The notes under the pieces were generated by a model. The model made no database searches, was not told the origin of the DNA, and saw only the letters and a program-made list of their open reading frames with translations. From Planctomycetota bacterium (GTDB taxonomy: Bacteria; Planctomycetota; Phycisphaerae; Phycisphaerales; SM1A02): a DNA stretch of 43,362 nucleotides. A program made the translations under genes and the position numbers. The DNA is taken from the NCBI GenBank assembly GCA_014381555.1, contig JACNLO010000044.1, forward strand, positions 1 through 43,362, in the 5' to 3' direction. Shown piece after piece: positions 39,657 to 42,904 of the stretch. The stretch's first letter is position 1. Every line of letters starts with the position of its first letter.

Positions 39657-40478
39657 ATGAGACTCGGAAAAAACATGTTAGAAACCAGTAATCCCGCGCT
39701 AAGGAACCACAATGTCTGGGATGAGGGGCTAGCGGCTGGTGGCGTTGATACTGCATCTGTTGGTGGTGTGGTTAATAAGACAGGAATGCTGACTTCCGTT
39801 GCAATAGCGGGTGGAATGTTTGGCATTTGGCTTACACAAAATCAACCGGGGCTTGCTTGGCCACTGGCCATTGCGGGCATTATCGCCATCTTTGTAGTGT
39901 ATTTCATGATTATGGCCAATCCGCTTCGTGCAAAACAAACCGCTTGGATTTACGCTTTGGTGCAAGGGGCATTTCTTGGAGTTCTCACTCATGCGCTAGA
40001 TGGCGCGCTTGAACAAATGGGATATACCGCAATGGGCGGTCTCGCTTTGCAAGCGTTCGTTATTACTATCAGCGTTCTTATTTCAATGCTTGCTTTGTAT
40101 TATTTTCGCATTTTGCAGCCCACCAAAAAGTTTGTTGCTACGGTAAGCGTACTCACTCTTGGTATTTTTGTTACATACATGATTTCATTCGTGATGTCTT
40201 TCTTTGGTGCTCAGATGCCGTTTCTTTCGATTGGATCTGCGATGGAAGGTGGCAACGCGGCCCTAATTGGCATAGGTCTAAATGTTTTGATTCTTGGGGT
40301 AGCTTCACTTTGGCTCATCATCGATTTTGGCATGATTGAAAAACAGGTTAAATCAGGCGCACCAAAACAAATGGAGTGGTTTTGTGCATTTATTTTGATG
40401 GTCACGCTTGTTTGGATTTATCTCGAAGCCGTGAAACTTTGCTTCCGATTAGCTGTTTTGTTTGGGAATCGTGACTAA
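39657..40478 (+). CDS. Bax inhibitor-1/YccA family membrane protein
   Basis: This inner-membrane protein of 273 residues has about seven hydrophobic segments. The opening TSNPALRN is typical of the bacterial YbhL/YccA-like branch, and the end (SLWLIIDFGMIEKQVKSGAPKQMEWFCAFILMVTLVWIYLEAV) carries the conserved acidic residues of the BI-1 pore (D in IIDF, E in EW and LE). Members are pH- or calcium-sensitive channels or protease modulators; the role here is unknown. Its stop overlaps the RibBA stop (CTAA). Confidence 0.9.
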   Translation: MRLGKNMLETSNPALRNHNVWDEGLAAGGVDTASVGGVVNKTGMLTSVAIAGGMFGIWLTQNQPGLAWPLAIAGIIAIFVVYFMIMANPLRAKQTAWIYALVQGAFLGVLTHALDGALEQMGYTAMGGLALQAFVITISVLISMLALYYFRILQPTKKFVATVSVLTLGIFVTYMISFVMSFFGAQMPFLSIGSAMEGGNAALIGIGLNVLILGVASLWLIIDFGMIEKQVKSGAPKQMEWFCAFILMVTLVWIYLEAVKLCFRLAVLFGNRD

Positions 40479-41659
40479 CGATCGCCGTTTGTTGCAATCG
40501 GAACTTCTTCTTCTATATCAATACCAAAACCATGCAACGCGGTGAGGTGTTTGGGGTGGTTTGTAAGTAGTTTAAGTTTTTTCAAACCTAAGTCGCGAAT
40601 TATTTGTACGCCTGTGCCGTAATCGCGACGATCCATCGGCTGTTCAGAAACGGTAAGGTCTGGAACGTTGACATCTGATTCTGGTCGTTGAATTTTTTGC
40701 AGGCGGTCGATAAATTCGTCACCGTATTGTTCGGGCCGCATATAAATGAGCGCGCCGCGGCCTTCTTCAGAAATCATTCTCAACGAAGCCCTAAGCTCCT
40801 TGCCAGAAGGATGATCCGTAGCATCAAAAATATCGCCCAATAAATTACGTCGGTGTACTCGAACAAGCGTTGGTTCTTCGATTGGTTTTGCGCTGCCATA
40901 TTCATCCATGTCTCCAACTCCGCCAACAGTCAGCGCAAGGTGAGGAACAGCATCAATAGCACTGTGATACGCAAATAAATTGAATGTGCCGTATGGGGTT
41001 TCAATTGGAGTGCCGCACGTTGGCTCAATTCGTTTAACCAAACTCTCACGGGCAAGGCGGTATTCAATAATTTGTTCAACGGAGCACATTTTGAAATTGT
41101 GTTCTTCACAAATTTTCTCAAGATCGGGCACACGGGCCATTTCACCATCTTCTTTAACAACCTCGATGATAACTGCGGATGGTTTTAACCCTGCAAGTTT
41201 ACACAAATCAACTGAACCCTCGGTTTGACCTGTTCTTGCTAGCACACCACCGTTACGCGCGCGAAGAGGATTGATATGCCCCGGGCGGACGAAATCGTCT
41301 GGTCTAGAGTTTGGGTCAACTAGTAATTCAAGAGTTTTTACTCGGTCAGCCGCTGAAATCCCAGTTGAAACATTGTGACGCGGGTGCCCATCGACGCTAA
41401 TCGTGAAAGGTGTACCACGAACACTCGTATTGTCCGAAACCTGTGGCCCAAGCTCCAGTCGGTCGCAATCATCACCAGTCATTGCAACGCAAAGATACCC
41501 ACCACCGATTCGGGTAAAGAAGTTGATGAGTTCGGTGTTGATATGCTCGGTAGCAACGACAAAATCACCTTCGTTTTCACGATTTTCATCGTCAATAAGG
41601 ACAACCACCTTGCCTTGCCGCAAATCTTCCAACACTTCTTCAATAGTCGCTAACGCCAT
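40475..41659 (-). CDS. ribBA: RibBA-like protein with degenerate GTP cyclohydrolase II domain
   Basis: RibBA normally makes two riboflavin precursors. The N-terminal DHBP synthase domain keeps [11 protein letters not shown] and [14 protein letters not shown], but the GHTEA motif is GQTEG, so the metal-binding His (His153 of E. coli RibB) is Gln145. In the C-terminal GTP cyclohydrolase II domain the three zinc cysteines are replaced by Asn272, His283 and Ser285, and RQEGRG reads RPEQYG. Zinc-dependent GTP cyclohydrolase activity is therefore unlikely, as in the RibBX group. ATG 41659 follows TAAAAT by six bases, suggesting a leaderless start. The fold is otherwise full length (394 residues). 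Confidence 0.85.
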
Positions 41660-41665
41660 CACCGT

Positions 41666-41671
41666 ATTTTA
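41666..41671 (-). promoter_or_regulatory. Candidate -10 of a leaderless ribBA transcript
   Basis: TAAAAT on the minus strand is six bases before the ATG at 41659. The 33-base palindrome starts directly upstream and fills the -35 region. The peptidase gene on the other side has an identical TAAAAT-N6-ATG arrangement. Confidence 0.4.
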
Positions 41672-41704
41672 CATGGGGACAGTCCCCAGGGGACTGTCCC
41701 CATG
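41672..41704. repeat. Perfect palindrome of two GGGGAC-N-GTCCCC units (copy 1)
   Basis: A perfect 33-base palindrome, CATGGGGACAGTCCCC then A then its reverse complement. Each half is itself the near-palindrome GGGGAC-N-GTCCCC. No T-run follows on either strand, so it is not an intrinsic terminator. It abuts the ribBA -10 element. It may be a REP-type dispersed repeat or a double operator. Confidence 0.8.
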
Positions 41705-41746
41705 AAATCTGCAATACAAATCTAATAAAAGCGAATTAGGCAAGTT

Positions 41747-41783
41747 TTTTTGGGGACAGTCCCCTGGGGACTGTCCCCAAAAA
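41747..41783. repeat. Perfect palindrome of two GGGGAC-N-GTCCCC units (copy 2)
   Basis: The same 27-base core (41752-41778) as copy 1 with centre T instead of A, flanked by T-run on the left and A-run on the right, giving 37 bases of dyad. It ends six bases before the TAAAAT of the peptidase promoter. The two copies differ only at the centre and flanks. Confidence 0.8.
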
Positions 41784-41788
41784 CGCAG

Positions 41789-41794
41789 TAAAAT
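41789..41794 (+). promoter_or_regulatory. Candidate -10 of a leaderless M42-like peptidase transcript
   Basis: TAAAAT lies six bases before the ATG at 41801. There is no Shine-Dalgarno sequence, and the upstream palindrome occupies the -35 region. Confidence 0.4.
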
Positions 41795-41800
41795 AAAGTT

Positions 41801-42904
41801 ATGAACAAGCATTTGAAATGGTTAATGGAAATTACTGATATTCCGACTGCTGCTGGACAAGAGTGGAGAGTGGTTGATTGGATTGAAGCGTGGGCTAAAC
41901 GGCAGGGTGGCATCACGCTTAAAAAAGACAGGTTTGGGAATTTGCTTATTACGCAAACTCGAAAATCAACAAAAAAGCCAATCTATATAACTGCACATCT
42001 CGACCATCCAGCATTCGTCGTCCGCAAACAAATCGACGAACTGCACCTTGAGATGGAGTTTCGTGGAGGTGTCAACGACGCATACTTTGTTGGTGCAAGG
42101 GTTGAGGTCTTTGATAACGATGATAATGGCTACATTGGAACAATTCAATCACTTGATGCGAAGGCAAAACCATTTAAGCGGGTTGTTGTAAAACTTAAAA
42201 AGGGCGTTGCGGGTATTTTGCTCAAAGACGATGTTGCTCGATGGCATTTCAAACCGCCCGTTGTAAAAAACGGATTGCTCCACGCACCTGCTTGTGATGA
42301 TCTTGCTGGCGTCGCGGCGGCACTTTGCGCGTTAGACAATATTAAAAAACTTCCTGCACTTGGAAATGTTGGTGTTCTCTTAACTCGTGCAGAAGAAATA
42401 GGGTTCGTTGGGGCAATTGCCGCTGCTAAACATCGCTCAGTTCCAAAATCTTCACGGTTACTCTGCCTTGAAACATCAAGAAGTTTTCCAGAATCACCGA
42501 TTGGCGACGGCCCAATTCTTCGTGTAGGTGATAAAACAAGCGTGTTTGGTCCTGAACTTACGAACGCTGCTACTGAAATCATGAACGCACAAAAGAATTT
42601 TTCGTGGCAACGAAAACTTATGCCTGGTGGAACGTGCGAGTCCACTGCTTTCTGCGATTTTGGTTACCTTTCAACCTGTTTATGTTTAGCACTGGGCAAC
42701 TACCACAACATGAAAGATATCGATGGTGTTTTACAAAAAAACAAACCCGCGAAAATCGCTCCTGAAGTAATATCAGTAAACGATTTTCACAGGCTTGTCG
42801 ACATGTTAAAAATTATCTGTCGCGATTTAGATAAACCAAGAAAAGCCACGTTGCGTCGAGCATTAGATGCACGGCTTAAGTGGCATAAAAAACTCCTTAG
42901 TTAG
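41801..42904 (+). CDS. M42/M28-like metallo-aminopeptidase
   Basis: This zinc or cobalt exopeptidase of 367 residues has the clan MH ligands in order: THE HxD pair in ITAHLDHP, the bridging Asp in ACDDLAGVAAAL, the catalytic/metal Glu-Glu in RAEEIGFVGA, a later Asp/Glu region around CLETSRSF, and the final His in ALGNYHNM. The order and the GxVNDAYF-type beta domain insert favour family M42 (glutamyl aminopeptidase/tetrahedral type) over M20. It probably trims cytoplasmic peptides. It is divergent from ribBA across the palindrome pair and its last eight bases overlap the next gene end. Confidence 0.85.
   Translation: MNKHLKWLMEITDIPTAAGQEWRVVDWIEAWAKRQGGITLKKDRFGNLLITQTRKSTKKPIYITAHLDHPAFVVRKQIDELHLEMEFRGGVNDAYFVGARVEVFDNDDNGYIGTIQSLDAKAKPFKRVVVKLKKGVAGILLKDDVARWHFKPPVVKNGLLHAPACDDLAGVAAALCALDNIKKLPALGNVGVLLTRAEEIGFVGAIAAAKHRSVPKSSRLLCLETSRSFPESPIGDGPILRVGDKTSVFGPELTNAATEIMNAQKNFSWQRKLMPGGTCESTAFCDFGYLSTCLCLALGNYHNMKDIDGVLQKNKPAKIAPEVISVNDFHRLVDMLKIICRDLDKPRKATLRRALDARLKWHKKLLS

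Follow-up and report, generated by a model that had tools for sequence, protein, structure and literature searches.

The twin palindromes that lie between a ribBA-type gene and a divergent peptidase-like gene very probably represent both ends of a single non-autonomous, REPIN-like element, whose family was most likely copied and placed by a Y1 (HUH/tyrosine) transposase encoded on the same contig (C48). This reading as a mobile element relies on the copy number of the repeat, its paired architecture, the consensus of its inner ends, its association with the transposase gene and the lack of any promoter bias. The window, i.e., the whole stretch of 43,362 nucleotides that was analyzed (G000:C48:1-43362), belongs to a genome (G000) of 1.99 Mb distributed in 91 contigs.

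Twin palindromes in the ribBA/peptidase gap

A search of the window allowing up to one mismatch found four exact copies of the 13-base unit GGGGACNGTCCCC, starting at 41675, 41689, 41752 and 41766, and no copy with one mismatch beyond these (mean of 0 in 100 shuffles). They pair into two 27-mers separated by 50 bases: the left twin (41675-41701), made of two 13-base palindromes as GGGGACAGTCCCC-A-GGGGACTGTCCCC, and the right twin (41752-41778), GGGGACAGTCCCC-T-GGGGACTGTCCCC. Since they differ at the centre base only, each is the reverse complement of the other. Both ends of the 50-base spacer (41702-41751) carry an A-tract/T-tract, as do the inner sides of the twins across the repeat family. 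Reading of the sequence, together with a family-wide test of the flanks, extends the palindrome around the left twin to 41672-41704 (CAT...ATG) and the one around the right twin to 41747-41783 (TTTTT...AAAAA). The window search thus bears out two 27-base cores, differing at their centre only, in a divergent gap of 141 bases, as initially described; this length is counted from the ribBA ATG and becomes 138 bases from the GTG start of the gene call.

The gap is bordered on one side by the ribBA-type gene (40475-41662, minus strand; bifunctional DHBP synthase/GTP cyclohydrolase II), whose product matches the ribB model above its cut-off and the bifunctional and ribA models below theirs. On the other side, the peptidase-like gene (41801-42904, plus strand) has weak M42/M20-type matches, all below cut-off. 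Two putative promoters were recognized by reading: a -10-like box of ribBA, ATTTTA (41666-41671, TAAAAT on the minus strand), three bases from the first 27-mer, and its counterpart for the peptidase gene, TAAAAT (41789-41794, plus strand). The latter is located 10 bases from the second 27-mer and five from its extended palindrome, and not six bases from the core as proposed in the first-pass annotation. A scan of the gap detected no sigma-70-type hexamer pair; its sole match (41813-41842, with 0.4 expected) is inside the peptidase gene. Congeners have similar -10-like boxes in this gap, and those devoid of a GGGGAC/GGGGTC element keep these boxes within shorter gaps (46, 64, 75, 47 and 59 bases being displayed for L061, L064, L066, L067 and L070, compared to 140 here); L061, L066 and L067 carry other small palindromes (GGTGCC-type). 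The element may have inserted between the two boxes because this small gap tolerates insertion there, and its effect on ribBA or on the peptidase gene, if any, would be a side effect. It should also be mentioned that the start codons follow the -10-like boxes at a distance of only about 6 to 10 bases (41657-41671 and 41789-41801 in the window; also in L046 and L053), which suggests that transcripts are leaderless or nearly so in this genus.

Copy number and architecture of the repeat family

The genome G000 harbors 109 exact copies of the 13-base unit, compared to none of its reversed control. These dispersed copies are what the first-pass annotation had expected from a REP-like repeat. They form 44 twins and 27 clusters at about 26 places, two clusters flanking the transposase gene. 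Imperfect units are few: the surroundings that hold all 109 exact units contain only five with one mismatch and six with two. No match to the 27-mer was found in the viral contigs scanned.

The element of the ribBA/peptidase gap (twin, spacer and inverted twin) is 104 bases long, and the usual cluster similarly has two twins that are separated by 50/51 or 60/61 bases, mostly unrelated in sequence. Among the 27 unit-to-unit stretches of 40 to 70 bases, 26 have one of these four lengths (15 of 50 bases, five of 51, five of 60 and one of 61), the last one being of 64 bases. Alignments of these spacers have a mean score of -0.85 versus -5.81 in shuffles, and seven of the 351 pairs score above 10, the maximum in shuffles; the top score belongs to a local duplication within L052, followed by L043/L053. 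The spacers being mostly unrelated, this argues against a recent copying of whole units.

The flanks of 17 twin pairs (34 inner and 34 outer flanks) show 80% T at positions -7 to -4 on the inner sides versus 42% on the outer ones. Therefore, the unit is a pair with inner tracts and not a single twin. On this ground, a CRISPR-like array was set aside. The palindrome extends perfectly into the flanks over a mean of 2.3 bases, compared to 0.96 in re-paired flanks (0/2000); a looser measure, the number of complementary bases among the first eight positions, rises only modestly (3.68 versus 3.27, below the null maximum of 3.91), and only three of the 17 pairs are exactly reverse complementary at all positions. 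Short direct duplications of flank and part of a unit, as if generated by hairpin slippage, were observed in the outer flanks of L046:2960-3060, L044:2893-2945, L042:2925-2985 and L050:2959-3010.

The copy of the ribBA/peptidase gap, the only one that was folded, is predicted to form a single long hairpin (41668-41785) of -42.3 kcal/mol versus a shuffled mean of -13.45 (z = -11.4; none of 200 shuffles as good). The single-stranded element would thus fold as a whole and, by analogy with TnpA-REP, this hairpin may be what the enzyme recognizes.

Genomic context and alternative functions

The 27 clusters include nine located between tandem genes, eight between convergent and seven between divergent ones, two in a called gene and one at a contig end, compared to 22 tandem, nine divergent and nine convergent gene pairs in the window. 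The clusters therefore have no promoter preference. These orientations come from a simple codon-model gene caller, whose calls are rough. Those of L035, L044 and L051 depend on ORFs overlapping the repeat, L058 is convergent in one calling run and tandem in the other, and L046 was left as tandem in the tally, although the conservation of its left gene in the congener G001 (67%) makes it divergent. For L041, L042, L043 and L055, the two runs agree that the repeat has a gene pointing at it from either side. One of the clusters (L034:2706-2810, on G000:C3) is inside a called reading frame; between the same two neighbor genes, with similar flanking sequence, G001 carries a different palindrome (L098:6437, on G001:C59).

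The strength of the predicted hairpin and the frequency of convergent and tandem clusters could also fit a family of terminators or RNA-stabilizing hairpins kept for their effect at transcript ends, the link with the transposase being secondary. Moreover, REPs elsewhere reportedly lie for the most part between unidirectional and convergent genes (PMC3733652). However, the copy under study is upstream of both genes, no stem followed by a T-run occurs in 41600-41860, and the counts per genome range from 109 to 0 inside one genus. We consequently regard this explanation as very unlikely for the family. For the ribBA/peptidase gap itself, a terminator was rejected on the lack of a stem with a T-run.

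Paired operators, where a regulator would bind both twins, loop the 50-base spacer (for a 77-base period of about seven helical turns) and control ribBA and the peptidase gene in place of a -35 box, seem even less probable: the position of the twins between two divergent -10-like boxes, the difference of one helical turn between the 50/51 and 60/61 spacer classes and the scarcity of decayed copies are all in their favor, but operators are expected in few copies in front of genes, whereas the unit is present in 109 copies that are distributed without regard to promoters, including the four convergent clusters common to both runs, and no exact copy exists in nine of the 13 genomes of the genus. 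The operator reading was thus rejected on copy number and gene context. Of the two readings offered by the first-pass annotation, the REP-like element spread by a Y1 transposase finds support and the operator does not, given the very observation (many copies without promoter bias) that the annotation had named as contrary to it.

Y1 transposase genes and associated repeats

Following a check proposed in the first-pass annotation, a search of G000 with the PF01797 profile revealed two Y1 transposase genes, one of which has the same repeats on both sides. This gene (C48:51343-51678, minus strand) is bracketed by repeat units at 51013-51102 and at 51822-51937. It shares its contig with the ribBA/peptidase element, from which it is about 9.5 kb away, and lies about 8 kb beyond the end of the window. 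Its association with the repeats suggests that its product moves them. The protein has the HUH motif as NHYH and the Y..NP motif as YVDQNP; its best model is REP_Tyr_transpos, just below the cut-off (79.4 bits for a cut-off of 80), and it matches Y1_Tnp above cut-off. Its single match among PDB sequences is TnpArep 4er8 (E = 0.00016). Pfam searches with E-values up to 0.1 recovered Y1_Tnp alone and no helix-turn-helix, which could nevertheless be present in a divergent form.

The second Y1 protein of G000 scores 83.7 bits with REP_Tyr_transpos. Its gene, on C13, goes with its own repeat family, GTACCAGGTCCGTAC, represented by nine copies at three places (G000:C13:4950-5728, i.e., L016; C7:2837-2911; C41:39405-39453), four of them beside the C13 gene.

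Among the 567 relatives found for the C48 transposase, 80 were kept, and the nearest named one, from a Phycisphaerae MAG, is 47% identical. The motif GGGGWSAS occurs 1.36 times per locus near these 80 relatives compared to 0.29 in shuffles. Their loci carry the exact unit in one case and a looser palindrome, GGNGNCWGNCNCC, in eight.

Distribution in the genus and in the order

The exact unit is present in four of the 13 genomes of the genus, with 109, seven, two and one copies, and the genome with 109 copies has a transposase gene of this kind, which supports the mobile-element reading. A Y1_Tnp match was also found in four of these 13 genomes, of which G000 and G006 have both. However, two other congeners, G001 and G004, contain many looser palindromes (43 and 21) yet no Y1_Tnp match, so that the involvement of the transposase requires there the added assumption of gene loss. 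At the scale of the order (151 genomes sampled), 10 genomes carry any copy of the unit, the next highest count being six, whereas 106 have a Y1_Tnp match. Therefore, the repeat cannot be predicted from the mere presence of a Y1 gene.

Comparison with known repeat-transposase systems

The repeat shares with canonical REPs the abundance and dispersion of mostly extragenic palindromes (109 units; 24 of 27 clusters intergenic by the rough gene calls). It is nonetheless not a canonical REP, since GT[AG]G is found in none of the 88 ten-base 5′ flanks of the twins (2.9 expected from shuffles); one flank ends in GT[AG], which the initial G of the twin completes to GT[AG]G.

Among known sequences, the GGGGWSAS repeats that accompany TIRYT transposases come closest, so the transposase-repeat kind is known and the present member is new. 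As in the TIRtrons described by Di Nocera et al. 2013 (PMC3733652), the Y1 gene lies between inverted repeats that have no GTAG head and fit GGGGWSAS, here as GGGGACAG. According to the same description, some of the GGGGWSAS TIRs are double palindromic and some moderately abundant families occur in dimers or clusters. The first-pass annotation mentioned similar elements near Y1 transposases, a likeness that applies to these TIRYT repeats (PMC3733652) but not to the GT[AG]G-tagged canonical REPs. Compared to the TIRYT repeats as presented in that paper, the units found here are almost all exact, their twins are spaced by 50/51 or 60/61 bases and they have inner T-tracts.

The C48 transposase resembles the RAYT/TnpA-REP proteins, as described by Quentin et al. 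2018 (PMC6006769), in its HUH and Y..NP motifs, its single gene copy and its flanking palindromes. In that classification, 20 of 26 TIRYTs belong to subclass 2.1, which is said to carry a C-terminal helix-turn-helix; Pfam detected none in the C48 transposase. The same authors report no REP-like sequences beside either subclass 2.1 or subclass 2.3.

The architecture is that of REPINs as described by Bertels and Rainey 2011 (PMC3116915): dispersed elements linked to RAYTs, with inverted paired ends, a less conserved spacer of characteristic length and a single hairpin formed by the whole. For REPINs, the length of the spacer and the capacity to form a hairpin are presented there as critical. In contrast to REPINs, the present elements have GGGGAC double-palindrome ends devoid of GT[AG]G and mostly unrelated spacers, and they are far fewer.

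Repeat places shared between congeners

The stretches around matches to the looser palindrome were compared between genomes (32 places in G001, 13 in G004, 16 in G006, one plus one more in G002 and one in G011). The places of G006 come from 100 of the 111 matches listed, apart from C36 and C146, and those of G004 are apart from C12:31005, C14 and C34. Some of these matches are due to chance, since the reversed control gives two in G001, four in G004 and six in G006. A gap was considered as shared when the palindromes of both genomes lie to the same side of orthologous genes; for L049, L036, L056 and L037, the assignment comes from one flanking gene only. Three kinds of matches were dropped before counting: L041 with G006:C10, where the gene has its palindrome on the opposite side; those of L041, L047_c2, L055 and L058 to L127, L134 or L122 whose alignment is limited to short segments, 49 to 65 residues long, in the C-terminal part (the full-length match of L047_c2 to L122 being kept); and those between the transposase and other Y1 genes (L090, L092, L094 and L141).

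On this basis, at least 12 of the 26 places of G000 also hold such a palindrome in a congener, usually with another sequence. G001 shares eight of them: L034 (in a gene), L037, L040, L046, L047a, the transposase gap, L048 (the ribBA/peptidase gap) and L053. G006 shares at least seven (L036, L046, L047a, the transposase gap, L048, L049 and L056), G004 at least two (L047a and L048), and G002 and G011 one each (L048 and L052, respectively). The palindromes of the shared gaps are mostly of the GGGGTC/GGTGTC type in G001, G004 and G006 and correspond to the GGGGAC unit in G002 and G011. Furthermore, Y1 genes occupy the ribBA/peptidase gap in G005 and the L046 gap in G007, and in G006 a Y1 gene has the same neighbor as its counterpart in G000 but is on the opposite strand. 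Two local features were also noted: in G005, the ribBA/peptidase gap (L093 on C103, about 1273-2650) contains, besides the Y1 transposase gene, a long array with many CTCNGAG-like motifs, and G006 has, at gaps with GGGGAC clusters in G000, tandem arrays with a period of about 16 bases (GGGGTCAGACTCC plus a few bases; L143, L141, L155 and L152).

Simple arithmetic, assuming 1700 gaps, predicts about 0.5 place shared with G001 by chance (26 x 32/1700) versus eight observed. Along 15 syntenic gaps between C48 and G001:C22, all three repeat gaps of G000 are occupied in G001, compared to four of the 15 gaps overall (P = 0.009); this test, the sole one made without choosing repeat places, weighs all gaps alike and would be much weaker if restricted to longer gaps. 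The corresponding comparisons with G004:C17 (1/1 in nine gaps) and G006:C7 (1/1 in three gaps) are too small to count.

One possible, though rather doubtful, interpretation of this sharing is that the repeat places are old and genus-wide and that the palindrome has been swapped in each species, as if each transposase rewrote or re-targeted existing sites (concerted in-place turnover), spacers drifting at a nearly fixed length and transposase genes being found in the same gaps too. Inspection by eye detected no spacer homology between shared-gap pairs, so the sharing may result either from such turnover or from insertions that recur at preferred gaps. The orthoswitch of REP classes at syntenic RAYT genes, as described by Nunvar et al. 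2013 (PMC3686654), similarly places different repeat sequences at corresponding places of related strains. However, the repeats of that description flank the RAYT gene and old ones decay elsewhere, whereas many dispersed places are shared here between species with different palindromes. Within the open-licence literature, searches combining orthologous intergenic sites and repetitive extragenic palindromic sequences recovered no paper, and the motif strings of the repeat recovered only papers unrelated by their titles.

Overall, this analysis removes a tempting operator reading of the ribBA/peptidase gap and provides an example of a transposase paired with repeats that lack the GT[AG]G head, their units numbering 109 in one genome versus few or none in the other genomes of the genus. 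The pattern of shared gaps is the part most worth following: if in-place turnover is true, this genus would allow a test of genome-wide sequence change in such repeats.
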